Assembly (NCBI RefSeq): GCF_008831285.2
Contig: NC_045148.1
Span: 8,129,001 to 8,193,000, forward strand
Length of the DNA stretch: 64,000 nucleotides
Direction: 5' to 3'
Origin: Nymphaea colorata
Taxonomy: Eukaryota; Streptophyta; Magnoliopsida; Nymphaeales; Nymphaeaceae
Of the stretch, positions 1-52,580 are shown in pieces (the stretch's first letter is position 1; each line of letters begins with the position of its first letter). The notes under the pieces were generated by a model. That model did no database searches. It was not told the DNA's origin and was given only the letters and a program-made list of their open reading frames with translations. The position numbers and the translations under genes are program-made.

Positions 1-541
1 AGTAGTGGGCCACGATCAATGGTCTTATTTGATCGAAACTTTGTTGAGTCTGCAACTAGTAGTGGGCTTGGATCAGTGGTCTTACCCGATCCCAAAATTG
101 TTGGATTCGAATTTGCTTATTTCAAAAAGTTTATCAAAATGACAATAAGGGCTTTCTTGACAACGTCCATAATGGTTGTAGTCGTCCAACTGATGATTTA
201 ATTTCATGTTGAGCAGCTCTTGCATGGGTTTTCAAATCCAAGAGTCTTGAATGCACAAAATACCACCCAAGAATTCCAACATGGGCATCTTCATTGCCTC
301 TCACTTCTCCATTTCATTCAATCACCATTGATTTTCTTCAAAAACGCTTCTAAGATGAGGCTGAAAGATCCTCCAACAACACTCTAATTTCTCTTGGCAT
401 TCAACACCTCCCTTTCATGCACTTCACAAAACGCATGATCCTATTGTTGCTCTGGATGACTAGTCTTATCTCATCCAGAGGCTATTGAATTGGATATGGC
501 CATGGGTCTGGCTTCAAGAATTGTAGGACGTCGATCTGGTA

Positions 542-850
542 ATGGGTGTAGATCAGTGGTCTTATCTGATCCGAAAATCGTTGGATTTAGATCTTCGTAT
601 GTGCCTCGATCAGTGGTCTTTTCTGATCCAGAAATTATTGTATTGGGATTTGACTAGGGGTCAAGATCGGTGGTCTCACCTGATCGAACAATCGTTGTAT
701 TTAAAACTAGTAGTGGGCCACGATCAATGGTCTTATTTGATCGAAACTTTGTTGAGTATGCAACTAGTAGTGGGCTTCGATCAGTGGTCTTACCCGATCC
801 TAAGATTGTTGGATTCGAATTTGCTTATTTCAAAAAGTTCATCAAAATGA
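542..850 (+). other. Representative A-type repeat reading frame (102 codons), probably not a gene
   Basis: Reading frame made of five 19-codon repeats of the pattern DQWSYLI-x-K-L/S-L, ending at the conserved TGA after SKSSSK. It begins at a true ATG (context GTAATGGGTG). The same frame recurs in A monomers at 2859, 5174, 8391, 11664, 27491, 31607, 35723, 38059 and 40374. It exists because the 57-bp subrepeat is exactly 19 codons; a shifted plus frame and a minus frame are open over the same bases. The repeated peptide has an aromatic/leucine pattern that could form amphipathic helices, but I know no matching family. No splice, promoter or poly(A) evidence is visible. Transcription and dN/dS are unknown, so I treat it as a by-product of the repeat. 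Confidence 0.25.
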
Positions 851-1190
851 CAGTAAGGGCTTTCTTGACAATGTCCATAATGGTCGTAGTTGTCTAAGTG
901 ATGATTTAATTTCATGATGAGCAGCTCCTCCATGGGTTTCCAAATCCAAGACTCCAGAATGCACAAAATACCAGCGAAGAATTGTAATATGGGCATCTTC
1001 ATTTCCTCACTTCCTCATTTCATTCGTTAACCATTGGTTTTCTTCAAAAACGCTTCCTTGATGAGGCAGAAAGATCCTCCAACAACAATCTAATTTCTCT
1101 TGGCATTCAACACCTCCCTTTCAGGAACTTCACAAAACGCATGATCCAATTGTTGCTTTGGATGACTAGTCTTATCTCATCCAGAGGCTA

Positions 1191-1556
1191 TTGAATTGGA
1201 TATGGTTGTGGGAGTGGTTACAAAAATTGTTCGACGTCGATCTCGAAACAGGTGTAGATCAGTGGTCTTATCTGATCCGAAAATCGTTGGATTTAGATAT
1301 CCGCATGTGCCTCGATCAGTTGTCTCATCTGATCCAAAAATTGTTGTATTGGGATCTGACTAGGAGTTTAGATCAGTGGTCTCATCTGATCGAAAAATCG
1401 TTGTATTTGAAAATAGTAGGGGGCCAAGATCAATTGTCTTATTTGATCCGAACTTTGTTGAGTCTGCAACTAGTGGACGGCCTGGATCAGTGGTCTTACC
1501 TGATCTTAAGATTGTTGCATTCGAATTTGCTTGTTTCAAAAAGTTCATCAAAATGA
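1191..1556 (+). other. Representative B-type repeat reading frame (121 codons), probably not a gene
   Basis: Open frame through the B monomer with a tryptophan-rich head (NWIWLWEWLQKLFDVDLE) followed by five 19-codon units and the shared stop after SKSSSK. It is open from a TTG, not an ATG; the first in-frame ATG lies well inside the repeats. Copies of the frame lie at 3508, 5823, 9040, 12313, 28140, 32256, 38708 and 41023. The lack of a conserved ATG argues against translation as drawn. No family is recognised. Confidence 0.2.
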
Positions 1557-1872
1557 CAGCAAGGGCTTTCTTGACAACATCCATAATGTTTGTAGTTGTC
1601 TAACTGATGATTTAATTTTGTGTTGAGCAGCTCCACCATGCGTTTCCAAATCCAAGAGTCTTGAATGCACAAAATACCACCCAATAATTCTAACATGGGC
1701 ATCTTCATTGTCTCACTTCCCCATTTCATTCGATCACCATTGGTTTTCTTCAAAAACGCTTCCATGATGAGACAGAAAGATCCTCCAACAACACTCTAAT
1801 TTCTCTTGGCATTCAACACCTCCCTTTCATGCACTTCACAAAACGCATGATCCTATTGTAGGTCTGGATGAC

Positions 1873-2457
1873 TTGTCTTATCTCATCCAGAGGTTATGGA
1901 ATTGGATATGTTTGTGGGACTGGTCACAAAAATTGTTCGACATTGATCTCGAAACGGGTGTAGATCAGTGGTCTTATCCCATCCGAAAATCGTTGGATTT
2001 AGATCTCCGCATGTGCCTAGATCAGTTGTCTTATCTGATCAAGAAATTGTTGTATTGGGATCACGCTAGGAGTCTAGATCAGTGGTCTCATCTGATCGAA
2101 AAATCGTTGTGGGAGTGGTCACAAAAATTGTTCGACGTCGATCTCAAAACGGGTGTAGATCAGTGGTCTTATCTGATCCGAAAATCGTTGGATTTAGATC
2201 TCCGCATGTGCCTCGATCAGTTGTCTTATCTGATCCTGAAATTGTTGTATAGGGATTTGGCTAGGAGTCTAGATCAGTGGTCTCATCAGATAGAAAAATC
2301 GTTGTATTTGAAAATAGAAGGGGGCCACGATCAATTGTCTTATTTGATCCGCACTTTATTGAGTCTGCAACTAGTAGTGGGCTTGGATCAGTGGTTTTAC
2401 CCGATCCTAAAATTGTTGGATTCGAATTTGCTTATTTCAAAAAGTTCATCAAAATGA
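1873..2457 (+). other. Representative C-type repeat reading frame (194 codons), probably not a gene
   Basis: Longest repeat frame: a W-rich head, then 19-codon units with one 27-codon variant unit (DQWSHLIEKSLWEWSQKLF...) in the middle, ending at the same TGA as types A and B. It opens at TTG rather than ATG. Intact 194-codon copies lie at 4190, 24703, 29723, 33839 and 37075. A 213-codon version at 10623 has one extra 19-codon unit. Other C copies are cut by a single-base loss (near 6,990, 31,075 and 35,190) or by a stop in the first unit (near 9,835 and 28,935). This mixture of intact and broken frames suggests no strong selection. Confidence 0.22.
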
Positions 2458-2861
2458 CAGTAAGGGCTTTGTTAAAAACGTCCATAATGGTCGTAGTCGT
2501 CTCACTGATGATTTAATTTCATGTTGAGCAGCTCCTGCATGGGTTTTCAAATCCAAGAGTCTTGAATGCAAAAAATACCACCCAAGAATTCTAACATGGG
2601 CATCTTCATTGCCTCTCACTTCCCCATTTCATTCAATCACACCATTGATTTTCTTCAAAAACGCTTCTAAGATGAGGCTGAAAGATCCTCCAACAACACT
2701 CTAATTTCTCTTGGCATTCAACACCTCCCTTTCATGCACTTCACAAAACGCATGATCCTATTGTTGCCCTGGATGACTATTCTTATCTCATCCAGAGGCT
2801 ATTGAATTGGATATGGCCATGGGTCTGGCCTGAAGAATTGTAGGACGTCGATCTGGTAATG

Positions 2862-5176
2862 GGTGTAGATCAGTGGTCTTATCTGATCCGAAAATCGTTG
2901 GATTTAGATCTTCGTATGTGCCTCGATCAGTGGTCTATTCTGATCCAGAAATTATTGTATTGGGATTTGACTAGGGGTCAAGATCGGTGGTCTCACATGA
3001 TCGAACAATCGTTGTATTTGAAACTAGTAGTGAGCCACGATCAATGGTCTTATTTGATTGAAACTTTGTTGAGTCTGCAACTAGTAGTGGGCTTCGATCA
3101 GTGGTCTTACCCGATCCTAAAATTGTTGGATTCGAATTTGCTTATTTCAAATAGTTCATCAAAATGACAGTAAGGGCTTTCTTGACAACGTCCATAATGG
3201 TCGTAGTTGTCTAAGTGATGATTTAATTTCATGATGAGTAGCTCCTGCATGGGTTTCCAAATCCAAGAGTCTAGAATGCACAAAATACCAGCCAAGAATT
3301 CTAATATGGGCATCTTCATTTTCTCACTTCCTCATTTCATTCGTTAACCATTGGTTTTCTTCAAAAACGCTTCCTTGATGAGGCAGAAAGATCCTCCAAC
3401 AACACTCTAATTTCTCTTGGCATTCAACACCTCCCATTCAGGAACTTCACAAAACGCATGATCCTATTGTTGCTTTGGATGACTAGTCTTATCTCATCCA
3501 GAGGCTATTGAATTGGATATGGTTGTGGGAGTGGTTACAAAAATTGTTCGACGTCGATCTCGAAACAGGTGTAGATCAGTGGTCTTATCTGATCCGAAAA
3601 TCGTTGGATTTAGATATCCGCATGTGCCTCGATCAGTTGTCTTATCTGATCCAAAAATTGTTGTATTGGGATCTGACTAGGAGTTTAGTTCAGTGGTCTT
3701 ATCTGATCGAAAAATCGTTGTATTTGAAAATAGTAGGGGGCCACGATCAATTGTTTTATTTCATCCGAACTTTGTTGAGTCTGCAACTAGTGGAAGGCCT
3801 AGATCAGTGGTCTTACCTGATCTTAAGATTGTTGCATTCGAATTTGCTTGTTTCAAAAAGTTCATCAAAATGACAGTAAGGGCTTTCTTGACAACATCCA
3901 TAATGTTTGTAGTTGTCTAACTGATGATTTAATTTTGTGTTGAGCAGCTCCTGCATGCGTTTCCAAATCCAAGAGTCTTGAATGCACAAAATACCACCCA
4001 ATAATTCTAACATGGGCATCTTCATTGTCTCACTTCCCCATTTCATTCGATTACCATTGGTTTTCTTCAAAAACGCTTCCATGATGAGGCTGAAAGATCC
4101 TCCAACAACACTCTAATTTCTCTTGGCATTCAACACCTCCCTTTCATGCACTTCACAAAACGCATGATCCTATTGTAGGTCTGGATGACTTGTCTTATCT
4201 CATCCAGAGGTTATGGAATTGGATATGTTTGTGGGACTGGTCACAAAAATTGTTCGACATTGATCTCGAAACGGGTGTAGATCAGTGGTCTTATCCGATC
4301 CGAAAATCGTTGGATTTAGATCTCCGCATGTGCCTAGATCAGTTGTTTTATCTGATCAAGAAATTGTTGTATTGGGATCACGCTAGGAGTCTAGATCAGT
4401 GGTCTCATCTGATCGAAAAATCGTTGTGGGAGTGGTCACAAAAATTGTTCGACGTCGATCTCAAAACGGGTGTAGATCAGTGGTCTTATCTGATCCGAAA
4501 ATCGTTGGATTTAGATCTCCGCATGTGCCTCGATCAGTTGTCTTATCTGATCCTGAAATTGTTGTATAGGGATTTGGCTAGGAGTCTAGATCAGTGGTCT
4601 CATCAGATAGAAAAATCGTTGTATTTGAAAATAGAAGGGGGCCACGATCAATTGTCTTATTTGATCCGCACTTTATTGAGTCTGCAACTAGTAGTGGGCT
4701 TGGATCAGTGGTTTTACCCGATCCTAAAATTGTTGGATTCGAATTTGCTTGTTTCAAAAAGTTCATCAAAATGACAGTAAGGGCTTTGTTAAAAACGTCC
4801 ATAATGGTCGTAGTCGTCTCACTGATGATTTAATTTCATGTTGAGCAGCTCCTGCATGGGTTTTCAAATCCAAGAGTCTTGAATGCAAAAAATACCACCC
4901 AAGAATTCTAACATGGGCATCTTCATTGCCTCTCACTTCCCCATTTCATTCAATCACCATTGATTTTCTTCAAAAACGCTTCTAAGATGAGGCTGAAAGA
5001 TCCTCCAACAACACTCTAATTTCTCTTGGCATTCAACACCTCCCTTTCATACACTTCACAAAACGCATGATCCTATTGTTGCTCCGGATGACTAGTCTTA
5101 TCTCATCCAGAGGCTATTGAATTGGATATGGCCATGGGTCTGGCTTGAAGAATTGTAGGACGTCGATCTGGTAATG
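2862..5176 (+). repeat. Higher-order unit A-B-C (2,315 bp)
   Basis: A at 2862, B at 3568, C at 4274. Nearly the same length and order as the preceding unit, and aligned type-to-type it is far more similar than A, B and C are to one another. That is the definition of a higher-order repeat. Confidence 0.9.
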
Positions 5177-8100
5177 GGTGTAGATCAGTGGTCTTATCTG
5201 ATCCGAAAATCGTTGGATTTAGATCTTCGTATGTGCCTCGATCAGTGGTCTATTCTGATCCAGAAATTATTGTATTGGGATTTAACTAGGTGTCAAGATC
5301 GGTGGTCTCACCTGATCGAACAATCGTTGTATTTGAAACTAGTAGTGGGCCACGATCAATGGTCTTATTTGATCGAAACTTTGTTGAGTCTGCAACTAGT
5401 AGTGGGCTTCGATCAGTGGTCTTACCCGATCCTAAAATTGTTGGATTCGAATTTGCTTATTTCAAATAGTTCATCAAAATGACAGTAAGGGCTTTCTTGA
5501 CAACGTCCATAATGGTCGTAGTTGTCTAAGTGATGATTTAATTTCATGATGAGTAGCTCCTCCATGGGTTTCCAAATCCAAGAGTCTAGAATGCACAAAA
5601 TACCAGCCAAGAATTCTAATATGGGCATCTTCATTTTCTCACTTCCTCATTTCATTCGTTAACCATTGGTTTTCTTCAAAAACGCTTCCTTGATTACGCA
5701 GAAAGATCCTCCAACAACACTCTAATTTCTCTTGGCATTCAACACCTCCCATTCAGGAACTTCACAAAACGCATGATCCTATTGTTGCTTTGGATGACTA
5801 GTCTTATCTCATCCAGAGGCTATTGAATTGGATATGGTTGTGGGAGTGGTTACAAAAATTGTTCGACGTCGATCTCGAAACAGGTGTAGATCAGTGGTCT
5901 TATCTGATCCGAAAATCGTTGGATTTAGATATCCGCATGTGCCTCGATCAGTTGTCTTATCTGATCCAAAAATTGTTGTATTGGGATCTGACTAGGAGTT
6001 TAGATCAGTGGTCTCATCTGATCGAAAAATCGTTGTATTTGAAAATAGTAGGGGGCCACGATCAATTGTCTTATTTGATCCGAACTTTGTTGAGTCTGCA
6101 ACTAGTGGAGGGCCTGGATCAGTGGTCTTACCTGATCTTAAGATTGTTGCATTCGAATTTGCTTGTTTCAAAAAGTTCATCAAAATGACAGTAAGGGCTT
6201 TCTTGACAACATCCATAATGTTTGTAGTTGTCTAACTGATGATTTAATTTCGTGTTGAGCAGCTCCTGCATGCGTTTCCAAATCCAAGAGTCTTGAATGC
6301 ACAAAATACCACCCAAGACTTCTAACATGGGCATCTTCATTGTCTCACTTCAACATTTCATTCGATTACCATTGGTTTTCTTCAAAAACGCTTCCATGAT
6401 GAGGCTGAAAGATCCTCCAACAACACTCTAATTTCTCTTGGCATTCAACACCTCCCTTTCATGCACTTTACAAAACGCATGATCCTATTGTAGGTCTGCA
6501 TGACTTGTCTTATCTCATCCAGAGGTTATGGAATTGGATATGTTTGTGGGACTGGTCACAAAAATTGTTCGACATTGATCTCGAAACGGGTGTAGATCAG
6601 TGGTCTTATCCGATCCGAAAATCGTTGGATTTAGATCTCCGCATGTGCCTAGATCAGTTGTTTTATCTGATCAAGAAATTGTTGTATTGGGATCACGCTA
6701 GGAGTCTAGATCAGTGGTCTCATCTGATCGAAAAATCGTTGTGGGAGTGGTCACAAAAATTGTTCGACGTCGATCTCAAAACGGGTGTAGATCAGTGGTC
6801 TTATCTGATCCGAAAATCGTTGGATTTAGATCTCCGCATGTGCCTCGATCAGTTGTCTTATCTGATCCTGAAATTGTTGTATAGGGATTTGGCAAGGAGT
6901 CTAGATCAGTGGTCTCATCAGATCGAAAAATCGTTGTATTTGAAAATAGAAGGGGGCCACGATCAATTGTCTTATTTGATCCGAACTTATTGAGTCTGCA
7001 ACTAGTAGTGGGCTTGGATCAGTGGTTTTACCCGATCCTAAAATTGTTGGATTCGAATTTGCTTATTTCAAAAAGTTCATCAAAATGAAAGTAAGGGCTT
7101 TGTTAAAAACGTCCATAATGGTCGTAGTCGTCTAACTGATGATTTAATTTCATGTTGAGCAGCTCCTGCATGGGTTTTCAAATCCAAGAGTCTTGAATGC
7201 ACAAAATACCACCCAAGAATTCTAACATGGGCATCTTCATTGCCTCTCACTTCCCCATTTCATTCAATCACCATTGATTTTCTTCAAAAACGCTTCTAAG
7301 ATGAGGCTGAAAGATCCTCCAACAACACTGTAATTTCTCTTGGCATTCAACACCTCCCTTTCATGCACTTCACAAAACGCATGATCCTATTGTTGCTCTG
7401 GATGACTAGTCTTATCTCATCCAGAGGCTATTGAATTGGATATGGCCATGGGACTGGTCACAAAAATTGTTCGACATTGATCTCGAAACGGGTGTAGATC
7501 AGTGGTCTTATCTGATCCGAAAATCGTAGGATTTAGATATCCGCATGTGCCTAGATCAGTTGTCTTATCTGATCCAGAAATTGTTGTATTGGGATCACGC
7601 TAGGAGTCTAGATCAGTGGTCTCATCTGATCGAAAAATCGTTGTGGGAGTGGTCACAAAAATTGTTCCACGTCGATCTCAAAACGGGTGTAGATCAGTGG
7701 TCTAATCTGATCAGAAAATCGTTGGATTTAGATCTCCGCATGTGCCTCGATCAGTTGTCTTATCTGATCCTGAAATTGTTGTATTGGAATTTCGCTAGGA
7801 GTCTAGATCAGTGGTCTCATCTGATCGAAAAATCGTTGTATATGAAAATAGTAGGGGGCCGCGATCAATGGTCTTATTTGATCCGAACTTTGTTGAGTCT
7901 GCAACTAGTGGAGGGCTTGGATCAGTTGTCTTATCCGATCCTAAAATTGTTGGATTCGAATTTGCTTGTTTCAAAAAGTTCAACAAAATGACAGTAAGGG
8001 CTTTCTTGACAACGTCCATAATGGTTGTAGTCGTCTAACTAAAGATTTAATTTCATGTTGAGCAGCTCCTGCATGGGTTTTCAAATCCAAGAGTCTTGAA

Positions 8101-8393
8101 TGCACAAAATACCACCCAAGAATTCTAACATGGGCATCTTCATTGCCTCTCACTTCCCCATTTCATTCAATCACCATTGATTTTCTTCAAAAACGCTTCT
8201 AAGATGAGGCTGAAAGATCCTCCAACAACACTCTAATTTCTCTTGGCATTCAACACCTCCCTTTCATGCACTTCACAAAACGCATGATCCTATTGTTGCT
8301 CTGGATGACTAGTCTTATCTCATCCAGAGGCTATTGAATTGGATATGGCCATGGGTCTGGCCTGAAGAATTGTAGGACGTCGATCTGGTAATG
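5177..8393 (+). repeat. Higher-order unit A-B-C-C (3,217 bp)
   Basis: A at 5177, B at 5883, C at 6589, then a second C-like monomer at 7491. The start of that extra monomer is a hybrid: the A-type leader GGATATGGCCATGGG runs directly into the C-type ACTGGTCACAAAAATTG at about 7440-7460, marking a recombination between unlike monomers. Confidence 0.88.
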
Positions 8394-11300
8394 AGTGTAG
8401 ATCAGTGGTCTTATCTGATCCGAAATTCGTTGGATTTAGATCTTCGTATGTGCCTCGATCAGTGGTCTATTCTGATCCAGAAATTATTGTGTTGGGATTT
8501 GACTAGGGGTCAAGATCGATGGTCTCACCTGATCGAACAATCGTTGTATTTGAAACTAGTAGTGGGCCACGATCAATGGTCTTATTTGATCGAAACTTTG
8601 TTGAGTCTGCAACTAGTAGTGGGCTTCGATCAGTGGTCTTACCCGATCCTAAAATTGTTGGATTCGAATTTGCTTATTTCAAATAGTTCATCAAAATGAC
8701 AGTAAGGGCTTTCTTGACAACCTCCATAATGGTCGTAGTTGTCTAAGTGATGATTTAATTTCATGATGAGCAGCTCCTCCATGAGTTTCCAAATCCAAGA
8801 GTCTAGAATGCACAAAATACCAGCCAAGAATTCTAATATGGGCATCTTCATTTCCTCACTTCCTCATTTCATTCGTTAACCATTGGTTTTCTTCAAAAAC
8901 GCTTCCATGATGAGGCAGAAAGATCCTCCAACAACACTCTAATTTCTCTTGGCATTAAACACCTCCCTTTCAGGAACTTCACAAAACGCATGATGCTATT
9001 GTTGCTCTGCATGACTAGTATTATCTCATCCAGAGGCTATTGAATTGGATATGGTTGTGGGAATGGTTACAAAAATTGTTCGACGTCGATCTCGAAACAG
9101 GTGTAGATCAGAGGTCTTATCCGATCCGAAAATCGTTGGATTTAGATATCCGCATGTGCCTCGATCAGTTGTCTTATCTGATCCAAAAATTGTTGTATTG
9201 GGATCTGACTAGGAGTTTAGATCAGTGGTCTCATCTGATCGAAAAATCGTTGTATTTGAAAATAGTAGGGGGCCACGATCAATTGTCTTATTTGATCCGA
9301 ACTTTGTTGAGTCTGCAACTAGAGGAGGGCCTGGATCAGTGGTCTTACCTGATCTTAAGATTGTTGCATTCGAATTTGCTTGTTTCAAAAAGTTCATCAA
9401 AATGACAGTAAGGGCTTTCTTGACAACATCCATAATGTTTGTAGTTGTCTAACTGATGATTTAATTTCGTGTTGAGCAGCTCCTGCATGCGTTTCCAAAT
9501 CCAAGAGTCTTGAATGCACAAAATACCACCCAAGAATTCTAACATGGGCATCTTCATTGTCTCACTTCCCCATTTCATTCGATCACCATTGGTTTTCTTC
9601 AAAAACGCTTCCATGATGAGGCTGAAAGATCCTCCAACAAAACTCTAATTTCTCTTGGCATTCAACACCTCCCTTTCATGCACTTCACAAAACGCATGAT
9701 CCTATTGTAGGTCTGGATGACTTGTCTTATCTCATCTAGACGTTATGGAATTGGATATGTTTGTGGGACTGGTCACAAAAATTGTTCGACATTGATCTCG
9801 AAATGGGTGTAGATCACTGGACTTATCTGATCTGAAAATCGTTGGATTTAGATCTCCGCATGTGCGTAGATCAGTTGTCTTATCTGATCCAGAAATTGTT
9901 GTATTGGGATCACGCTAGGAGTCTAGATCAGTGGTCTCATCTGATCGAAAAATCGTTGTGGGAGTGGTCACAAAAATTGTTCGACGTCGATCTCAAAACG
10001 GGTGTAGATCAGTGGTCTTATTTGATCCGAAAATCGTTGGATTTAGATCTCTGCATGTGCCTCGATCAGTTGTCATATCTGATCCTGAAATTGTTGTATT
10101 GGGATTTGGCTAGGAATCTAGATCAGTGGTCTGATCTGATCGAAAAATCGTTGTATTTGAAAATAGAAGGGGGCCACGATCAATTGTCTTATTTGATCCG
10201 AACTTTGTTGAGTCTGCAACTAGTAGTGGGCTTGGATCAGTGGTCTTACCCTATCCTAAAATTGTTGGATTCGAATTTGCTTATTTCAAAAAGTTCATCA
10301 AAATGACTGTAAGGGCTTTGTTGAAAACGGCCATAATGGTTGTAGTCGTCTAACTGATGATTTAATTTCATGTTAAGCAGCTCCTGCATGGGTTTCCAAA
10401 TCCAAGAGTCTTGAATGCACAAAATACCACCCAAGAATTCTAACATGGGCATCTTCATTGTCTCACTTCCCCATTTCATTCGATCACCATTGGTTTTCTT
10501 CAAAAAAGCTTCCATGATGAGGCTGAAAGATCCTCCAACAACACTCTAATTTCTCTTGGCATTCAACACCTCCCTTTCATGCACTTCACAAAACGCATGA
10601 TCCTATTGTAGGTCTGGATGACTTGTCTTATCTCATCCAGACGTTATGGAATTGGATATGTTTGTGGGACTGGTCACAAAAATTGTTCGACATTGATCTC
10701 GAAACGGGTGTAGATCAGTGGTCTTATCCAATCCGAAAATCGTTGGATTTAGATCTCCGCATGTGCCTAGATCAGTGGTCTTATCTGATCCGAAAATCGT
10801 TGGATTTAGATCTCCGCATGTGCCTAGATCAGTTGTCTTATCTGATCCAGAAATTGTTGTATTGGGATCACGCTAGGAGTCTAGATCAGTGGTCTCATCT
10901 GATCGAAAAATCGTTGTGGGGGTGGTCACAAAAATTGTTCAACGTCGATCTCAAAACGGGTGTAGATCAGTGGTCTTATCTGATCCGAAAATCGTTGGAT
11001 TTAGATCTCCGCATGTGCCTCGATCAGTTGTCTTATCTGATCCTGAAATTGTTGTATTGGGATTTGGCTAGGAGTCTAGATCAGTGGTCTCATCTGATCG
11101 AAAAATCGTTGTATATGAAAATAGTAGGGGGCCGCGATCAATGGTCTTATTTGATCCAAACTTTGTTGAGTCTGCAACTAGTGGAGGGCTTGGATCAGTT
11201 GTCTTATCCGATCCTAAAATTGTTGGATTCGAATTTGCTTGTTTCAAAAAGTTCAACAAAATGACAGCAAGGGCTTTCTTGACAACGTCCATAATGGTTG

Positions 11301-11666
11301 TATTCGTCTAACTAATGATTTAATTTCATGTTGAGCAGCTCCTGCATGGGTTTCCAAATCCAAGAGTCTTGAATGCACAAAATACCACCCAAGAATTCTA
11401 ACATGGGCATCTTCATTGCCTCTCACTTCCCCATTTCATTCAATCACCATTGATTTTCTTCAAAAACGCTTCTAAGATGAGGCTGAAAGATCCTCCAACA
11501 ACACTCTAATTTCTCTTGGCATTCAACACCTCCCTTTCATGCACTTCACAAAACGCATGATCCTATTGTTGCTCTGGATGACTAGTCTTATCTCATCCAG
11601 AGGCTATTGAATTGGATATGGCCATGGGTCTGGCTTCAAGAATTGTAGGACGTCGATCTGGTAATG
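8394..11666 (+). repeat. Higher-order unit A-B-C-C with one extra 57-bp subrepeat (3,273 bp)
   Basis: A at 8394, B at 9100, C at 9806, C at 10707. The last monomer is 960 bp instead of 901-904 because one complete 57-bp subrepeat is duplicated around 10,730-10,840. The two copies differ only at a base or two (TCCAATCC against TCTGATCC). Confidence 0.9.
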
Positions 11667-13765
11667 GGTGTAGATCAGTGGTCTTATCTGATCCGAAAAT
11701 CGTTGGATTTAGATCTTCGTATGTGCCTCGATCAGTGGTCTTTTCTGATCCAGAAATTATTGTATTGGGATTTGACTAGGGGTCAAGATCGGTGGTCTCA
11801 CCTGATCGAACAATCGTTGTATTTAAAACTAGTAGTGGGCCACGATCAATGGTCTTATTTGATCGAAACTTTGTTGAGTCTGCAACTAGTAGTGGGCTTC
11901 GATCAGTGGTCTTACCCGATCCTAAGATTGTTGGATTCGAATTTGCTTATTTCAAAAAGTTCATCAAAATGACAGTAAGGGCTTTCTTGACAATGTCCAT
12001 AATGGTCGTAGTTGTCTAAGTGATGATTTAATTTCATGATGAGCAGCTCCTCCATGGGTTTCCAAATCCAAGACTCCAGAATGCACAAAATACCAGCGAA
12101 GAATTGTAATATGGGCATCTTCATTTCCTCACTTCCTCATTTCATTCGTTAACCATTGGTTTTCTTCAAAAACGCTTCCTTGATGAGGCAGAAAGATCCT
12201 CCAACAACAATCTAATTTCTCTTGGCATTCAACACCTCCCTTTCAGGAACTTCACAAAACGCATGATGCTATTGTTGCTCTGCATGACTAGTATTATCTC
12301 ATCCAGAGGCTATTGAATTGGATATGGTTGTGGGAGTGGTTACAAAAATTGTTCGACGTCGATCTCGAAACAGGTGTAGATCAGAGGTCTTATCCGATCC
12401 GAAAATCGTTGGATTTAGATATCCGCATGTGCCTCGATCAGTTGTCTTATCTGATCCAAAAATTGTTGTATTGGGATCTGACTAGGAGTTTAGATCAGTG
12501 GTCTCATCTGATCGAAAAATCGTTGTATTTGAAAATAGTAGGGGGCCACGATCAATTGTCTTATTTGATCCGAACTTTGTTGAGTCTGCAACTAGTGGAG
12601 GGCCTGGATCAGTGGTCTTACCTGATCTTAAGATTGTTGCATTCGAATTTGCTTGTTTCAAAAAGTTCATCAAAATGACAGTAAGGGCTTTCTTGACAAC
12701 ATCCATAATGTTTGTAGTTGTCTAACTGATGATTTAATTTCGTGTTGAGCAGCTCCTGCATGCGTTTCCAAATCCAAGAGTCTTGAATGCACAAAATACC
12801 ACCCAAGAATTCTAACATGGGCATCTTCATTGTCTCACTTCCCCATTTCATTCGATCACCATTGGTTTTCTTCAAAAACGCTTCCATGATGAGGCTGAAA
12901 GATCCTCCAACAAAACTCTAATTTCTCTTGGCATTCAACACCTCCCTTTCATGCACTTCACAAAACGCATGATCCTATTGTAGGTCTGGATGACTTGTCT
13001 TATCTCATCTAGACGTTATGGAATTGGATATGTTTGTGGGACTGGTCACAAAAATTGTTCGACATTGATCTCGAAATGGGTGTAGATCAGTGGTCTTATC
13101 TGATCCGAAAATCGTTGGATTTAGATCTCCGCATGTGCGTAGATCAGTTGTCTTATCTGATCCAGAAATTGTTGTATTGGGATCACGCTAGGAGTGTAGA
13201 TCAGTGGTCTCATCTGATCGAAAAATCGTTGTGGGAGTGGTCACAAAAGTTGTTCGACGTCGATCTCAAAACAGGTGTAGATCAGTGGTCTTATCTGATC
13301 CGAAAATCGTTGGATTTAGATCTCTGCATGTGCCTCGATCAGTTGTCATATCTGATCCTGAAATTGTTGTATTGGGATTTGGCTAGGAATCTAGATCAGT
13401 GGTCTCATCTGATCGAAAAATCGTTGTATTTGAAAATAGAAGGGGGCCACGATCAATTGTCTTATTTGATCCGAACTTTGTTGAGTCTGCAACTAGTAGT
13501 GGGCTTGGATCAGTGGTCTTACCCGATCCTAAAATTGTTGGATTCGAATTTGCTTATTTCAAAAAGTTCATCAAAATGACTGTAAGGGCTTTGTTGAAAA
13601 CGTCAATAATGGTTGTAGTCGTCTAACTGATGATTTAATTTCATGTTAAGCAGCTCCTGCATGGGTTTCCAAATCCAAGAGTCTTGAATGCACAAAATAC
13701 CACCCAAGAATTCTAACATGGGCATCTTCATTGTCTCACTTCCCCATTTCATTCGATCACCATTG

Positions 13766-13770
13766 GTTTT
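13766..13770 (+). other. Target site duplication GTTTT, left of element 1
   Basis: GTTTT immediately before the 5' LTR is repeated immediately after the 3' LTR. Removing the element and one copy restores the normal array sequence CATTGGTTTTCTTC. Confidence 0.93.
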
Positions 13771-14070
13771 TGTTGACGGGTTTTGTTATTCGGGTCCGGA
13801 TCCGTACCCGATCCGGTTTGTCCTAATTAGGACTACTTATACTTCTGTAAACCCTAATCTTGGTGTTAATGAAGTGTTGAAGAGAGAGAGTGTCTGGAGG
13901 CTAGTGGGCACCAGACCTCCTCACCCGTGGTTTTTCTTCCCTCGAGTCGAGGGTTTTCCACGTTACATCTGTGTGCTTTCTTCTACTCTCGTGCACATTT
14001 TGTTTCTACAGGGTTTTCCACGTTACATCTGTGTGCTTTCTTCTACTCTCGTGCACATTTTGTTTCTACA
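13771..14070 (+). repeat. 5' LTR of element 1 (300 bp)
   Basis: Starts TGTTGACGGG and ends TTGTTTCTACA, with the TG...CA ends of LTRs. Its last 120 bp are a perfect tandem duplication of 60 bp (13951-14010 and 14011-14070), which explains why it is 60 bp longer than the LTRs of element 2. The U3/R/U5 limits cannot be set from sequence alone. Confidence 0.95.
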
Positions 14071-14082
14071 TGGTATCAGAGC
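14071..14082 (+). promoter_or_regulatory. Primer-binding site of element 1
   Basis: TGGTATCAGAGC directly after the LTR is complementary to the 3' end of plant initiator methionine tRNA, the usual primer for copia minus-strand synthesis. Confidence 0.93.
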
Positions 14083-14151
14083 CGTCGGACTTGGAGAAAA
14101 CAAAATCTGTTTTTTGTTCTATGGTTGTGAAGTTCCAACCCTGACTGCCGC

Positions 14152-14240
14152 CGCCGCTACCACCACCGCCGCCGCTGCCCTTGCTGCGCCGCCGCTGCCC
14201 TTGCTGCGCCGCCGCTGCCCTTGCTGCGCCGCCGCTGCCC
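14152..14240 (+). repeat. GC-rich 20-bp tandem repeats in the element 1 leader
   Basis: Between the primer-binding site and gag lies a GC-rich leader of about 520 bp. Its core holds three full copies and a partial copy of a 20-bp unit (GCCGCTGCCCTTGCTGCGCC). A 20-bp period is not a codon multiple, in keeping with a non-coding leader. Element 2 has fewer copies and a different arrangement. Confidence 0.8.
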
Positions 14241-14593
14241 TGGCCGTGACCGTGACCACCGCCGCTGTCGCCGCACCGTGGCCGCGTGACTGCCTCCGTC
14301 GCTGCCCCGCCGTGGCTGTGACCGCTGCTGCGTCGCTGGTGTCGTGACTGCCGACGCCAACGTCTCTGCCAACGCTTCTGCCGACGCCGACGTCCGACCA
14401 CCGACGCCGACGTCCAACGCCGTCGCCTCTTCTCGGCGCGCGCTGCCAAGCGCGGCCCTCTGCTTCCGCCGCGTCCTGCTGCTTCCGCAGCTCCCGCCGC
14501 TTCCGCCGTTGATCCCCGACTGCGTCATCTCACCTCTTCTCTCGGTTACTGCTGCTGTGTGTGTTCTTTGGCAGCCACTTCTACCTCGTGATC

Positions 14594-16864: not shown

Positions 16865-17104
16865 TGTAGAAACAAAATGTGCACGAGAGAAGAAGAAAGC
16901 ACACGGATGTAACGTGGAAAACCCTCGACTCGAGGGAAGAAAAACCACGGGTGAGGAGGTCTGGTGCCCACTAGCCTCCAGACACTCTCTCTCTTCAACA
17001 CTTCATTAACACAAAGATTAGGGTTTACAGAAGTATAAGTAGTCCTCATTAGGACAAACCGGATCGGGTACGGATCCGGACCCGAACAACAAAACCCGTC
17101 AACA
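16865..17104 (-). repeat. 3' LTR of element 2 (240 bp)
   Basis: Reads TGTAGAAAC...CCGTCAACA on the plus strand, the reverse complement of the family LTR. It has a single copy of the 60-bp block that is doubled in element 1. Confidence 0.95.
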
Positions 17105-21942: not shown

Positions 21943-21954
21943 GCTCTGATACCA
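21943..21954 (-). promoter_or_regulatory. Primer-binding site of element 2
   Basis: GCTCTGATACCA on the plus strand is the reverse complement of the initiator-Met tRNA binding site, adjacent to the 5' LTR. Confidence 0.92.
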
Positions 21955-22194: not shown

Positions 22195-22199
22195 CCAAA
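22195..22199 (+). other. Target site duplication CCAAA, right of element 2
   Basis: Second copy of the duplication. The gag-pol frame of element 1 continues with GATGTC directly after it. Confidence 0.93.
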
Positions 22200-24572: not shown

Positions 24573-24577
24573 GTTTT
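24573..24577 (+). other. Target site duplication GTTTT, right of element 1
   Basis: Right-hand copy of the 5-bp duplication made by the copia integrase, followed by the continuing monomer sequence CTTCAAAAAAGC. Confidence 0.93.
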
Positions 24578-34600: not shown

Positions 34601-35725
34601 TTACCATTGGTTTTCTTCAACAACGCTTCCATGATGAGGCTGAAAGATCCTCCAACAACACTCTAATTTCTCTTGGCATTCAACACCTCCCTTTCATGCA
34701 CTTTACAAAACGCATGATCCTATTGTAGGTCTGGATGACTTGTCTTATCTCATCCAGAGGTTATGGAATTGGATATGTTTGTGGGACTGGTCACAAAAAT
34801 TGTTCGACATTGATCTCGAAACGGGTGTAGATCAGTGGTCTTATCCGATCCGAAAATCGTTGGATTTAGATCTCCGCATGTGCCTAGATCAGTTGTCTTA
34901 TCTGATCAAGAAATTGTTGTATTGGGATCACGCTAGGAGTCTAGATCAGTGGTCTCATCTGATCGAAAAATCGTTGTGGGAGTGGTCACAAAAATTGTTC
35001 GACGTCGATCTCAAAACGGGTGTAGATCAGTGGTCTTATCTCATCCGAAAATCGTTGGATTTAGATCTCCGCATGTGCCTCGATCAGTTGTCTTATCTGA
35101 TCCTGAAATTGTTGTATAGGGATTTGGCTAGGAGTCTAGATCAGTGGTATCATCAGATAGAAAAATCGTTGTATTTGAAAATAGAAGGGGGCACGATCAA
35201 TTGTCTTATTTGATCCGCACTTTATTGAGTCTGCAACTAGTAGTGGGCTTGGATCAGTGGTTTTACCCGATCCTAAAATTGTTGGATTCGAATTTGCTTA
35301 TTTCAAAAAGTTCATCAAAATGACAGTAAGGGCTTTGTTAAAAACGTCCATAATGGTCGTAGTCGTCTCACTGATGATTTAATTTCATGTTGAGCAGCTC
35401 CTGCATGGGTTTTCAAATCCAAGAGTCTTGAATGCAAAAAATACCACCCAAGAATTCTAACATGGGCATCTTCATTGCCTCTCACTTCCCCATTTCATTC
35501 AATCACCATTGATTTTCTTCAAAAACGCTTCTAAGATGAGGCTGAAAGATCCTCCAACAACACTCTAATTTCTCTTGGCATTCAACACCTCCCTTTCATA
35601 CACTTCACAAAACGCATGATCCTATTGTTGCTCCGGATGACTAGTCTTATCTCATCCAGAGGCTATTGAATTGGATATGGCCATGGGTCTGGCTTGAAGA
35701 ATTGTAGGACGTCGATCTGGTAATG
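31610..35725 (+). repeat. Higher-order unit A-B-C-C-C, copy 2 of a 4,116-bp pair
   Basis: A at 31610, B at 32316, C at 33022, 33923 and 34824. Near-identical to the previous unit at an exact 4,116-bp offset. Differences I noticed are single bases, for example GTGGCCTTATC near 31,622 and TGGTATCATC near 35,146. This is a very recent block duplication. Confidence 0.92.
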
Positions 35726-38061
35726 GGTGTAGATCAGTGGTCTTATCTGATCCGAAAATCGTTGGATTTAGATCTTCGTATGTGCCTCGATCAGTGGTCT
35801 ATTCTGATCCAGAAATTATTGTATTGGGATTTGACTAGGTGTCAAGATCGGTGGTCTCACCTGATCGAACAATCGTTGTATTTGAAACTAGTAGTGGGCC
35901 ACGATCAATGGTCTTATTTGATCGAAACTTTGTTGAGTCTGCAACTAGTAGTGGGCTTCGATCAGTGGTCTTACCCGATCCTAAAATTGTTGGATTCGAA
36001 TTTGCTTATTTCAAATAGTTCATCAAAATGACAGTAAGGGCTTTCTTGACAACGTCCATAATGGTCGTAGTTGTCTAAGTGATGATTTAATTTCATGATG
36101 AGTAGCTCCTCCATGGGTTTCCAAATCCAAGAGTCTAGAATGCACAAAATCCCAGCCAAGAATTCTAATATGGGCATCTTCATTTTCTCACTTCCTCATT
36201 TCATTCGTTAACCATTGGTTTTCTTCAAAAACGCTTCCTCATCGATCTCGAAACAGGTGTAGATCAGTGGTCTTATCTGATCCGAAAATCGTTGGATTTA
36301 GATCTCCGCATGTGCCTAGATCAGTTGTCTTATCTGATCCAGAAATTGTTGTATTGGGATCACGCTAGGAGTCTAGATCAGTGGTCTCATCTGATCGAAA
36401 AATCGTTGTGGGAGTGGTCACAAAAATTGTTCCACGTCGATCTCAAAACGGGTGTAGATCAGTGGTCTAATCTGATCAGAAAATCGTTGGATTTAGATCT
36501 CCGCATGTGCCTCGATCAGTTGTCTTATCTGATCCTGAAATTGTTGTATTGGGATTTGGCTAGGAGTCTAGATCAGCGGTCTCATCTGATCGAAAAATCG
36601 TTGTATTTGAAAATAGTAGGGGGTCGCGATCAATGGTCTTATTTGATCCGAACTTTGTTGAGTCTGCAACTAGTGGAGGGCTTGGATCAATTGTCTTACC
36701 CGATCCTAAAATTGTTGGATTCGAATTTGCTTGCTTCAAAAAGTTCAACAAAATGACAGTAAGGGCTTTCTTGACAACGTCCATAATGGTTGTAGTCGTC
36801 TAACTAATGATTTAATTTCATGTTGAGCAGCTCCTGCATGGGTTTTCAAATCCAAGAGTCTTGAATGCACAAAATACCACCCAAGAATTCTAACATGGGC
36901 ATCTTCATTGCCTCTCACTTCCCCATTTCATTCAATCACCATTGATTTTCTTCAAAAACGCTTCTAAGATGAGGCTGAAAGATCCTCCAACAACACTCTA
37001 ATTTCTCTTGGCATTCAACACCTCCCTTTCATGCACTTCACAAAACGCATGATCCTATTGTAGGTCTGGATGACTTGTCTTATCTCATCCAGAGGTTATG
37101 GAATTGGATATGTTTGTGGGACTGGTCACAAAAATTGTTCGACATTGATCTCGAAACGGGTGTAGATCAGTGGTCTTATCTGATCCAAAAATCGTTGGAT
37201 TTAGATCTCCGCATGTGCCTAGATCAGTTGTCTTATCTGATCCAGAAATTGTTGTATTGGGATCACGCTAGGAGTCTAGATCAGTGGTCTCATCTGATCG
37301 AAAAATCGTTGTGGGAGTGGTCACAAAAATTGTTCCACGTCGATCTCAAAACGGGTGTAGATCAGTGGTCTTATCTGATCCGAAAATCGTTGGATTTAGA
37401 TCTCCGCATGTGCCTCGATCAGTTGTCTTATCTGATCCTGAAATTGTTGTATTGGGATTTGGCTAGGAGTCTAGATCAGTGGTCTCATCTGATCGAAAAA
37501 TCGTTGTATATGAAAATAGTAGGGGGCCGCGATCAATGGTCTTATTTGATCCAAACTTTGTTGAGTCTGCAACTAGTGGAGGGCTTGGATCAGTTGTCTT
37601 ATCCGATCCTAAAATTGTTGGATTCGAATTTGCTTGTTTCAAAAAGTTCAACAAAATGACAGCAAGGGCTTTCTTGACAACGTCCATAATGGTTGTATTC
37701 GTCTAACTAATGATTTAATTTAATGTTGAGCAGCTCCTGCATGGGTTTCCAAATCCAAGAGTCTTGAATGCACAAAATACCACCCAAGAATTCTAACATG
37801 GGCATCTTCATTGCCTCTCACTTCCCCATTTCATTCAATCACCATTGATTTTCTTCAAAAACGCTTCTAAGATGAGGCTGAAAGATCCTCCAACAACACT
37901 CTAATTTCTCTTGGCATTCAACACCTCCCTTTCATGCACTTCACAAAACGCATGATCCTATTGTTGCCCTGGATGACTATTCTTATCTCATCCAGAGGCT
38001 ATTGAATTGGATATGGCCATGGGTCTGGCCTGAAGAATTGTAGGACGTCGATCTGGTAATG
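35726..38061 (+). repeat. Deleted higher-order unit: truncated A, then C-C
   Basis: The A monomer starting at 35726 is only 530 bp. Its tail (CTTCAAAAACGCTTCCT) jumps at about 36,240 straight to ATCGATCTCGAAACAGG, the B-type leader, and then to a C-type body. About 176 bp of tail, plus the B body, are missing. C monomers follow at 36256 and 37159. Confidence 0.88.
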
Positions 38062-41000: not shown

Positions 41001-42689
41001 GTCTTATCTCATCCAGAGCCTATTGAATTGGATATGGTTGTGGGAGTGGTTACAAAAATTGTTCGACGTCGATCTCGAAACAGGTGTAGATCAGTGGTCT
41101 TATCTGATCCGAAAATCGTTGGATTTAGATATCCGCATGTGCCTCGATCAGTTGTCTTATCTGATCCAAAAATTGTTGTATTGGGATCTGACTAGGAGTT
41201 TAGATCAGTGGTCTCATCTGATCGAAAAATCGTTGTATTTGAAAATAGTAGGGGGCCACGATCAATTGTCTTATTTGATCCGAACTTTGTTCAGTCTGCA
41301 ACTAGTGGAGGGCCTGGATCAGTGGTCTTACCTGATCCTAAGATTGTTGCATTCGAATTTGCTTGTTTCAAAAAGTTCATCAAAATGACAGTAAGGGCTT
41401 TCTTGACAACATCCATAATGTTTGTAGTTGTCTAACTGACGATTTAATTTCGTGTTGAGCAGCTCCTGTATGCGTTTCCAAATCCAAGAGTCTTGAATGC
41501 ACAAAATACCACCCAAGAATTCTAACATGGGCATCTTCATTGTCTCACTTCCCCATTTCATTCGATCACCATTTGTTTTCTTCAAAAATGCTTCCATGAT
41601 GAGGCAGAAAGATCCTCCAACAACACTCTAATTTCTCTTGGCATTAAACACCTCCCTTTCATGCACTTCACAAAACGCATGATCCTATTGTAGGTCTGGA
41701 TGACTAGTCTTATCTCATCCAGAGGTTATGGAATTGGATATGGTTGTGGGACTGGTCACAAAAATTGTTCGACATTGATCTCGAAACGGGTGTAGATCAG
41801 TGGTTTTATCAGATCCAAAATCATTGGATTTAGATCTCCGCATGTGCCTAGATCAGTTGTCTTATGTGATCCAGAAATTATTGTATTGGGATCTGGCTAG
41901 GAGTCTAGATCAGTGGTCTCATCTGATCGAAAAATCGTTGTGGGAGTGGTCACAAAAATTGTTCCACGTCGATCTCAAAACGGGTGTATATCAGTGGTCT
42001 TATCTGATCCGAAAATCGTTGGATTTAGATCTCCGCATGTGCATTGATCAATTGTCTTATCTGATCCAAAAATTGTTGTATTGGGATCTGACTAGGAGTC
42101 TAGATCAGTGGTCTCACCTGATAGAAAAATCGTTGTATTTGAAAATAGAAGGGGTCCACGATCAATTGTCTTATTTGATCCGAACATTGTTGAGTCTGCA
42201 ACTAGTAGTGGGCTTGGATCAGTGGTCTCACCCGATCCTAAAATTGTTGGATTCGAATTTGCTTATTTCAAAAAGTTCATCAAAATGACAGTAAGGGCTT
42301 TCTTGACAACGTCCATAATGGTTGTAGTCGTCTAACTAATGATTTAATTTCATGTTGAGCAGCTCCTGCATGGGTTTCCAAATCCAAGAGTCTTGAATGC
42401 ACAAAATACCACCCAAGAATTCTAACATGGGCATCTTCATTGCCTCTCACTTCCCCATTTCATTCGATCACCGTTGGTTTTCTTCAAAAACACTTCTAAG
42501 ATGAAGCTGAAAGATCCTCCAACAACACTCTAATTTCTCTTCGCATTCAACACCTCCCTTTCATGCACTTCACAAAAGCATGATCCTATTGTTGCTCTGG
42601 ATGACTAGTCTTATCTCATCTAGAGGTTATGGAATTGAATATGGTTGTGGGACTGGTCACAAAAATTGTTCGACGTTGATCTCGAAACG
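38062..42689 (+). repeat. Two further A-B-C higher-order units
   Basis: A-B-C at 38062/38768/39474 (2,315 bp) and 40377/41083/41789 (2,313 bp). They return to the canonical 2.3-kb period seen at the left end. The last C monomer (41789) already carries more private changes than inner copies. Confidence 0.88.
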
Positions 42690-45600
42690 GGTGTAGATCA
42701 GTGGTCTTATCTGATCCGAAAATCGTTGGATTTAGATCTCCGCATGTGCCTCGATCAGTTGTCTTATCTGATCCTGAAATTGTTGTATTGGGATTTGGCT
42801 AGGAGTCTAGATCAGTGGTCTCATTTGATCGAAAAATCGTTGTATTTGAAAATAGTAGGGGGCACGATCAATGGTCTTATTTGATCCGAACTTCGCTGAG
42901 TCTACAACTAGTGGAGGGCTTCGATCAGTGGTCTTACCTGATCCTAAAATTCTTGGATTCGAATTTGCTTATTTCAAAAACTTCATCAAAATGACAGTAA
43001 GGGCTTTCTTGACAACGTCCATAATGGTTGTAGTCGTCTAACTGATGATTTAATTTCATGTTGAGCAGCTCCTGCATGGGTTACCAAATCCAAGAGTCTT
43101 GAATGCACAAAATACCACCCAAGAATTCTAACACGGGCATCTTCATTGCCTCTCACTTCCCCATTTCATTCGATCACCATCGGTTTTCTTCAAAAACGCT
43201 TCTAAGATTAGGTTAAAAGATCCTCCAACAACACTCTAATTTCTCTTGGCATTCAACACCTCCCTTTCAAGAACTTCACAAAACGCATGATCCTATTGTT
43301 GCTCTGGATGACTAGTCTTATCTCATCCGGAGGCTATTGAATTGGATATGGCCATGGGTCTGGCTAGAAGAATTGTAGGACATCGATCTGGTAACGGGTG
43401 TAGATCAGTGGTCTTATCTAATCTGAAAATCGTTGGATTTAGATCTTCGTATGTGCCTCGATCAGTGGTCTTATCTGATCCAGAAATTATTGTATTGGGA
43501 TCTGACTAGGGGTCAAGATCGGTGGTCTCACCAGATCGAAAAATCGTTGCATTGGAAACTAGTAATGGGCTACGATCAATGGTCTTATTTGATCGAAACT
43601 TTGTTGAGTCTGCAACTAGTAGTGGACTTGGATCAGTGGTCTTACCCGATCCTAAAATTATTGGATTCGAATTTGTTTATTTCAAAAAGTTCATCAAAAT
43701 GACAATAAGGGCTTTCTTGACAACATCCATAATGGTTGTAGTTGTCTAACTGATGATTTAATTTCATGTTGAGCAGCTCCTGCATGGGTTTCCAAATCAA
43801 AGAGTCTTGAATGCACAAAATACCACGCAAGAATTCTAACATGGGCATCTTCATTGCTTCTCACTTCCCCATTTCATTCGTTCACCATTGGTTTTCTTCA
43901 AAAACGTTTCTAAGATGAGGCTGAAAGATCCTCCAACAACACGCTAATTTCTCTTGGCATTCAACACCTCCCTTTCAGGAACTTCACAAAACGCATGATC
44001 CTATTATTGATCTGGATGACTAGTCTTATCTCATCCAGAGGCTATTGAATTGGATATGGCCATGGGTCTGGCTTGAAGAATTGTAGGATGTCGATCTGGT
44101 AACAGGTGTAGATCAGTGGTCTTATCTGATCCGAAAATCGTTGGATTTAGATCTTCATATGTGCCTCGATCAGTAGTCTTATCTGATCCAGAAATTATTG
44201 TATTGGGATCTGACTAGGGGTCAAGATCGGTGGTCTCACCTGATCGAAAAATCGTTGTATTTGAAACTAGAAGTGGGCCACGATCAATTGTCTTATTTGA
44301 TCGAAACTTTGTTGAGTCCGCAACTAGTGGAGGGCTTCCCCATTTCATTCGTTCACCATTGGTTTTCTTCAAAAACTTTTCTAAGAGGAGGCTGATAGAT
44401 CCTCCAACAACACTCTAATTTCTCTTGGCATTCAACACCTCCCTTTCAGGAACTTCACAAAACGCATGATCCTATTGTTGCTCTGGATGACTAATCTTAT
44501 CTCATCCAGAGGCTACTGAATTGGATATGGCCATGGGTATGGCTTGAAGAATTGTAGGACGTCGATCTGGTAACGAGTGTAGATCAATGGTCTTATCTAA
44601 TCCGAAAATCGTTTGATTTAGATCTTCGTATGTGCCTCGATCAGTGGTCTTATCTGATCCAAAAATTATTGTACTGAGATCTGACTAGGGGTCAAGATCG
44701 GTGGTCTCACCTGATCGAAAAATCATTGTATTTGAAACTAGTAGTAGGCCACGATCAATGGTCTTATTTGATCGAAACTTTGTTGAGTCTGCAACTAGTA
44801 GTGGGCTTGGATCATTGGTCTTTCCTGATCCTAAAATTGTTGGATTCGAATTTGCTTATTTCAAAAAGTTCATCAAAATGGCAGTAAGGGCTTTCTTGAC
44901 AACGTCCATAATGGTTGTAGCTGTCTAAGTGATGATTTAATTTCATGATGAGCAGCTCCTGCATGGGTTTCCAAATCCAAGAGTCTAGAATGCACAAAAT
45001 ACCACCCAAGAATTCTAACATGGGCATCTTCATTTCCTCACTTCCTCATTTCATTCATTAACCATTGGTTTTCTTCAAAAACGCTTCTATGATGAGGCTG
45101 AAAGATCCTCCAACAACACTCTAATTTCTCCTGGCATTCAACACCTCCCTTTCATGCACTTCACAAAACGCATGATCCTATTGTAGGTCGGGATGATTAG
45201 TCTTATCTCATCCAGAGGTTATGGAATTGGATATGGTTTTGGGACTGGTCACAAAAATTGTTCGACGTCGATCTCGAAATGGGTGTAGATCAGTGGTCTT
45301 ATCTGATCCGAAAATCGTTGGATTTAGATCTCCGCATGTGCCTCGATCAGTTGTCTTATCTGATCTAGAAATTGTTGTATTGGGATCGGACTAGGGGTCT
45401 AGATCAGTGGTCTCATCTAATCGAAAAATCGTTGTATTTGAAACTAGTAGGGGGCCAAGATCAATGGTCTTATTTGATCCGAACTTTGTTGAGTCTGCAA
45501 CTAGTAGTGGGCTTGGATCAGTGTTTCATACATGAACCTAAAATTGTTGGATTCGAATTTCTCATTTCAAAAAGTTCATCAAAATGACAGTAAGGGCTTT

Positions 45601-45864
45601 CTTGACAATGCCAGTAATGCTTGTAGTTGTATAAGTGATAATTTAATTTCATGTTGAGCAGCTCCTACATGGGTTTCCTAATGAAAGAGTCTTGAATGCA
45701 CAATATACCACCTAAGAATTCTAACATGGGCATCTTCATTGCCTCTCACTTCCTCATTTCATTTGTTAACCTTTGGTTTCTTCCACAACGCTTCTAAGGT
45801 AAGGCTGAAAGATCCTCCAACAACGCTTTAATTTCTCCTTGCATTCATCACCTCCCTTTCATGG

Positions 45865-45990
45865 ACTTCACAAAACACCAAATAACAATGCACATGCCCT
45901 AGGCGACCAAACTACTTCAAAAACCTAAAAACAACCTAAAACTAGCTAAATCCAAGGCTAAAAGTACATTATTCGAACAAAATTTAAGCA
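45865..45990 (+). repeat. Tail extension found only in edge monomers, copy 1
   Basis: About 125 bp beginning after ACTTCACAAAAC, including GCGACCAAACTAC, CAAAAACCTAAAA, CTAGCTAAATCC and a closing CATTATTCGAACAAAA. It is absent from every monomer left of 45 kb. Confidence 0.75.
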
Positions 45991-46799
45991 AAAAAAAAAA
46001 GTGGAACCAGATCAGGGTCTTGTTTGATCCAAAAAAAATTTAGCTTTGGAATTGGTACTGAGCTTCCATATACAGTTCTATCTCACTCAAAAATAGTTGG
46101 CTTATGATCCGATTGTAGGTTTGGATGACTACTCTTATCTCATCCAGAGGTTATTGAATTGGATATGGCTTGTGGGTCTGATCTCAAAAATTGTTGGGCG
46201 TCGATCTCGTAATGGGTGTAGATCAGTGATCTTATCTGATCCGAAAATCATTGGATTTAGATCTCCGCATGTGCCTCGATCAATTGTCTTATCTGATCCA
46301 GAAATTGTTGTATTGAGATCTGACTAGTGGTCTAGATCAGTGGTCTCATCGGATCGAAAAATCGTTGTATTTGAAACTAGTAGGGGGCCAAGATCAATGG
46401 TCTTATTTGATCCGAACTTTGTTGAGTCTGCAACTAGTAGTGGGCTTGGATCAGTGGTCTTAGCTAGAAAATTAAATTGTTTGATTTGTATTTGCTTATT
46501 TCAAAAAGTTCATCAAAATGACAGTAAGGGCTTTCTTGACAATGTCAATAATGGTTGTAATTGTATAATTGATGACTTAATTTCATGTTGAGCAGCTCAC
46601 GTTGAGCTGTATGGGTTTCCTAATGCAAGAGTCATGTAAGCACAAAATACCACCTAAGAAGTCTAATATGTGCATCTTCATTGCCTCTCACCTCCTCATT
46701 TCATTCGTTAAACATTGGTTTTCTTCCACAACGATTCTAATATGAGGTTGAAAAATCCTCCAACAGCACTCTAATTTCTCCTTGCATTCATCATCTCCC

Positions 46800-46925
46800 T
46801 TTCATGCACTTCACAAACAGCCAAATAATGATGCACACGCACTATGCGACCAAACTACATCAAAAACCTAAAAGTAGCTAAATCCTAGGCTAACAGCACA
46901 TTATTCAAACAAAATGTAAGCAAAA
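46800..46925 (+). repeat. Tail extension found only in edge monomers, copy 2
   Basis: Diverged partner of the sequence at 45,865-45,990, sharing GCGACCAAACTACATC, AAAAACCTAAAA, GTAGCTAAATCC and CACATTATTCAAACAAAA. It runs directly into the non-repetitive flank, so it probably shows the monomer before the inner copies lost this part. Confidence 0.75.
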
Positions 46926-46930
46926 ACATA

Positions 46931-52578: not shown

Positions 52579-52580
52579 CT

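Follow-up and report, generated by a model that had tools for sequence, protein, structure and literature searches.

The window analysed here is a stretch of 64,000 nucleotides from Nymphaea colorata (contig NC_045148.1, below C11, positions 8129001-8193000), and most of its first 46,930 positions belong to a tandem array built from a 57-bp subrepeat. A preliminary description had claimed for 1-46930 a tandem array nested on four levels, and the nesting is real by Tandem Repeats Finder, self-BLAST and a hidden Markov model (HMM) of the subrepeat. The array does span both ends of that interval, but 13771-24572 is a nested pair of copia elements (10.8 kb) and not array, so that the repeat DNA within the window, copia insert excluded, comes to 36128 bp. 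The array continues leftwards past the end of the window as far as C11:8085889.

Structure and homogenisation of the array

The features of the array, all on the forward strand, are as follows.

1-13770: tandem array, left part in the window; 57-bp subrepeats in A, B and C monomers, in the order A-B-C(n)
24573-46930: tandem array, right part, up to the right end of the array
123-830: A monomer, example (708 bp)
831-1536: B monomer, example (706 bp); spacer at 831-1254, followed by five 57-bp subrepeats at 1255-1536
1537-2437: C monomer, example (901 bp); like B, plus an internal tandem duplication of 195 bp at 1912-2305
28033-32034: duplicated block; second copy at 32149-36150
42269-46930: diverged edge units m40-m46
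45877-46103: extension segment of about 227 bp in the outermost units of the window; part of it also at 46818-46930

Subrepeats were detected by the three methods named above, with HMM hits accepted at E up to 0.1, and every one of the 288 HMM hits in the window falls inside 1-46930. Their spacing is mostly 54-61 bp, and a group holds five of them or, in C monomers, eight with an 81-bp step in between; a few positions were missed. Monomers were delimited by spacer matches and typed by clustering, which gave 46 in 1-46930: 13 of type A (about 708 bp), 10 of type B (706 bp), 21 of type C (about 901 bp) and two divergent edge units. With regard to the monomers of 706 and about 902 bp proposed earlier, their construction from 57-bp subrepeats is confirmed, but the longer is not a separate form, being the 706-bp monomer lengthened by an internal duplication of 195 bp, and so by three subrepeats. 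In one C monomer, at 10287-11244, there are 57 bp extra. The spacer, by which we mean the part of the monomer without recognised subrepeats, measures about 424 bp and has a degenerate subrepeat at its right end, and the unique part of roughly 290 bp that had been proposed has to be given up.

The order of monomers is A-B-C(n), and the units have lengths of 2315, 2317, 3217, 3273, 5025, 4116, 4116, 2336, 2315 and 3020 bp, in agreement with the range of 2.3-5.0 kb first described. Distinct monomer types thus follow each other in a repeating order and monomers of the same type are more alike than neighbours, as in higher-order repeats (HORs). Mean identity within types is 0.963 for A, 0.972 for B and 0.959 for C in the set of 46; for the 39 monomers that start before 42200 it is 0.968 within types and 0.906 between types, and adjacent monomers of different type are 0.903 identical. 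On C11 as a whole monomer matches extend over 8085889-8092489, 8097861-8109883, 8109984-8142770 and 8153573-8175926, giving 73,765 bp of repeat within a span of 90,038 bp, a long contiguous head-to-tail array as expected of a satellite. At its left end the order is different, with 1416-bp dimers. There is no clear signal of a 10-bp AA/TT/TA periodicity.

The newest duplication seen is that of the block at 28033-32034, which recurs 4116 bp further on with 2 differences in 4002 bp and bears out the report of a duplicated 4.1-kb unit; the array also has an exact repeat of 3000 bp. Identity within types shows no decay with distance (Spearman 0.06, -0.19 and -0.06, none significant), and this together with the block copy points to block-wise duplication. 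We infer that the unit of homogenisation is a block of monomers and not the single 57-bp repeat.

Such long and nearly perfect repeats would also be seen if the length and order of the array were mainly an artefact of assembly, and the genome was assembled from PacBio RSII reads, as stated in PMC7015852. However most interior monomers outside the newest block differ by about 0.1-4% from their nearest relative, the right edge grades into diverged units, with identity to the nearest other monomer dropping from 0.957 (m39) to 0.852 (m46), and related arrays of identical anatomy are present on other contigs. We consider an artefact on this scale quite unlikely.

Relatives, the dispersed module and origin

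The genome searched has 407,766,735 bases in 783 contigs; the assembly details in PMC7015852 give 409 Mb in 804 scaffolds. The searches scored best candidates only (7 of 105 in one of them), and all counts of places are lower bounds. Among the matches listed the array sequence is found on C11, C12, C2 and C657 only, to which C1 and C8 were added by way of the right flank. These relatives are shorter arrays that have diverged, with about 68-80% identity in the aligned parts, at 7.990-7.994 Mb on C2, at 14.509-14.511, 14.584-14.590 and 14.686-14.692 Mb on C12 (the last one inverted), on C657 and, among the matches listed, on C1 and C8, where they adjoin copies of the flank. They have the anatomy of the C11 array, 57-bp repeats adjoining the same spacer, and in C8 about 3 of the 4 kb examined consists of successive 57-bp repeats. 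The monomer, which the preliminary description had thought unusual, therefore has a simple account.

Copies on C12 and on C657 mostly show 95-99% identity to one another, through recent duplication or, for C657, perhaps as an alternative haplotype. Within the set L015, L017 and L020, arrays on C12 have similar flanks, 94-98% identical in long matches, and lie inverted about 100 kb apart, and the unplaced contig C657 is near-identical, which points to recent segmental duplication or a haplotype.

The extension segment links the right edge of the C11 array with these relatives. It has matches, in whole or part, at all five related array places compared on C2, C12 and C657 (L014, L015, L017, L019 and L020); in C1 and C8 the matches are partial, and the five C11 loci on the left (L009-L013) lack it. 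Against 1-13770 of the window there is just a 28-bp match, the interior to the right of the copia insert lying outside that comparison. No match was seen in L016, where a C12 array tails off with four subrepeat hits. Being present in the edge and the relatives and absent from the interior compared, the extension suggests that the edge units probably keep an older form of the unit. Such a pattern would be expected where exchange homogenises the middle of an array more than its ends, as Smith is reported to have proposed in 1976.

To the right of the array lie the following features.

46931-53223, no strand assigned: right flank, a dispersed module, about 75-91% shared with C2 and C1 and partly with C8 and C12
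48624-48764, reverse strand: broken Rab-GTPase exon (best E 4.8e-8; Pfam Ras above cut-off)

A query with 46931-51900 gave 84 matches genome-wide, self included, among which near-collinear copies are found on C2 (two, C2a and C2b), C1, C8 and in part C12 (at 22.4 Mb). The sequence shared to the right is longer among C1, C2a and C11 than in C8 and C2b. A relic of a second Rab exon near 48475-48495 is followed by a stop codon, and since the identical stop is in a C2 copy the gene fragment was probably already broken when the module spread. The 57-bp subrepeats adjoin the flank in four of the five copies examined (C11, C2a, C1 and C8), C2b having only a piece of spacer, and for this reason we take the minisatellite to belong to the dispersed module. 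The two sides of the C11 array have just five short similarities of 100-249 bp in common, with no pair of long terminal repeats (LTRs). The idea that the arrays on C11 and C2 occupy the same ancestral site was dropped, as the similarity on the left resembles a decayed copia (a call that depends on an integrase-like stretch judged by eye, with no Pfam hit for that stretch) and what lies on the right is a dispersed repeat. Part of the flank, 47069-47686, matches C3, C4, C5, C6, C8 and C431 at about 71-73% and is an older and more abundant repeat.

Our preferred explanation, to which we give a probability of roughly 0.78, is that this is a non-coding satellite array with HORs which formed locally and recently, by expansion of a minisatellite carried in the dispersed module. 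The start would be a 57-bp minisatellite in a module with a Rab gene fragment, and transposition or segmental duplication would have carried this module to several chromosomes. At the C11 copy an edge-type unit would then have lost its extension, after which the monomer types A, B and C and their order A-B-C(n) would have become fixed through unequal exchange and the duplication of blocks among copies lying out of register. Both copia elements entered later, into an array already formed there. The array itself probably has no sequence-specific function.

Several points weigh against this explanation. Neither ends of the module nor target duplications were found, and its copies could be segmental duplications instead of products of transposition. 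Since only best candidates were scored, a large diverged population may exist, the nearly identical copies of about 4 kb may partly be an effect of assembly, and the divergence of edge units comes from the right side only. Finally the frame of the subrepeats is open more than chance would lightly give.

The family is an ordinary kind of satellite DNA with four real levels. No description of this satellite was found in the open-licence literature, five sequence strings do not occur in an open-licence paper library, and neither "satellite" nor "tandem repeat" occurs in the main text of PMC7015852. The statement that no family is recognised agrees with the Rfam search of the window, with Pfam for three open reading frames of the repeat, with PDB for one and with that library, plant repeat libraries being outside the comparison.

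Similar systems have been described. In Lathyrus sativus (PMC7004042) FabTR-2 is like the present array in having a short unit, of 49 bp, varied HORs and arrays over 30 kb, and FabTR-53, also compared as a near system, had no HORs detected. The present family differs from both in sequence and lengths, with 57 bp and a spacer of about 424 bp, and in having the subrepeat, monomer, unit and block levels together in one array. Satellites derived from subrepeats of Ogre retrotransposons (PMC7004042) are similar in that the tandem repeats lie within a dispersed element and form longer arrays at certain loci; in contrast our module has a broken Rab exon, and neither LTRs nor any other termini of an element were found. 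Long monomers are known from Vicia faba (PMC5895790), where VfSat8 has irregular internal subrepeats but the other long monomers tested had none by dot-plot; several of its satellites are mapped to centromeres, whereas the array described here is known from sequence alone. Meloidogyne satellites (PMC3694981) resemble the present array in having HORs and short motifs, there CENP-B-box-like, conserved in otherwise divergent sequence.

How a short minisatellite turns into a large HOR satellite can usually not be seen, as the early stages are gone. One genome seems here to hold several stages, with mainly 57-bp repeats in the piece of C8 examined, short arrays of the older form on C2, C1 and C12, and a young multi-level array on C11 whose edge still shows the older unit. 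The order of events, the unit of duplication and the rate become testable in related plants, and the smaller relatives in the same genome make this a good case for studying satellite birth.

The conserved core and possible functions

Each subrepeat has a 21-bp core, GATCAG-N9-CTGATC, a spaced palindrome (GATCA...TGATC) with GATC half-sites. Between subrepeat positions r1-r5 divergence is 0.14 in the core and 0.46 in the rest (permutation p 0.0008), and a repeat of the analysis gave 0.12 and 0.46 (p 0.001). The core shows no depletion of recent variants (33 over 357 positions as against 40 over 612, p = 0.13), and 28 recent changes in its arms are one-sided and none is both-sided. Evidence for co-variation of the arms is mixed. 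In 16 chosen subrepeats there were 4 both-sided cells, a number reached in 1 of 500 shuffles, and 2 pairs with both-sided change, reached in 59 of 500. For 118 distinct cores from outside C11 there were 8 both-sided cells (shuffled mean 6.1, maximum 11) and a paired fraction of 0.811, above all shuffles (maximum 0.804), and for all 238 distinct cores 21 cells (shuffled 12.1, maximum 21); the subrepeats in these two sets were found by a core-seeded model, which favours a conserved core, and gapped hits were dropped. Folded as single strands, four subrepeats had z-values between -1.2 and -2.4, and the exact 21-base pattern is absent from viral and prokaryote collections. Judged on these comparisons the core is an old motif, conserved between old paralogues and without sign of present selection. 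It is very doubtful that it is an old binding site for a protein that bends DNA or promotes recombination, driving out-of-register exchange and turning the dispersed module into a multi-level satellite wherever it takes off.

The preliminary description had also suggested a centromeric or knob satellite. For a centromeric or pericentromeric satellite that organises kinetochore or heterochromatin one can cite the HOR order, which is like that of centromere satellites, the core with its GATC half-sites conserved across the five positions, and the young retrotransposons within the array. However centromeric satellites are usually, though not universally, abundant on most chromosomes, and a pan-chromosomal one is expected to look different from the pattern seen here, in which matches are listed at few places in 407.8 Mb (lower bounds), nor are recent variants depleted in the core. 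We find the centromere and knob suggestion unsupported and a centromeric role unlikely.

Could the array be a cluster of genes for a protein with a 19-residue repeat? The length of 57 bp is 19 codons, and this frame stays open over 90 codons or more in 40 stretches of the 46-monomer array. The simulated probability that five subrepeats contain no stop is 0.02-0.05 for each type, the types not being independent, and counts as weak evidence for such genes. However the 29 repeat open reading frames (ORFs) of at least 120 aa start with TTG in 26 cases, GTG in one and ATG in two, the ORF tool taking the first of TTG, GTG or ATG as the start. Between subrepeats the ratio of nonsynonymous to synonymous divergence (dN/dS) amounts to 0.70 for the open frame, with a range of 0.66-0.94 for the remaining frames; for the core it is 0.30 (null P = 0.32), with 0.22 in another frame. 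AlphaFold2 gave 11 sequences a mean predicted local distance difference test score (pLDDT) of 34, three repeat ORFs are under all Pfam cut-offs, and one ORF tried had no relative in PDB. With so little support from six-frame dN/dS, stop simulation, Pfam, PDB and AlphaFold2 we regard a gene cluster as highly improbable. A spacer of RNA genes was also rejected, there being no Rfam family at gathering score in the window and no tRNA by ARAGORN.

Insertions and neighbouring repeats

Two retrotransposons interrupt the array within the window.

13771-24572, forward strand: outer Ty1/copia LTR retrotransposon, interrupting a C monomer, with LTRs at 13771-14070 and 24273-24572 and target duplication GTTTT
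16865-22194, reverse strand: inner copia of the same family, in opposite orientation, nested in the outer; LTRs 16865-17104 and 21955-22194, target duplication CCAAA

The insert has LTRs, a target duplication, and integrase before reverse transcriptase, as in Ty1/copia. The LTRs differ at 1 of 300 positions in the outer pair and at 0 of 240 in the inner, by which both elements are very young and late insertions, and as the pair interrupts a C monomer it is younger than the array there. Copia as the source of the array was discarded, since the C monomer has only one 17-bp match to it and the edge units none. The outer LTRs have a 60-bp tandem duplication that is absent from the inner LTRs.

Outside the window a Ty3/gypsy remnant, with protease, RNase H and integrase-end pieces, fills the gap at C11:8092490-8097860 (L010:2490-7860), where it is inserted in the left part of the array. 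Near the right end of the module and past it there are perfect AT, TG and TA microsatellites at 53229-53331, 53657-53699 and 56942-56997.
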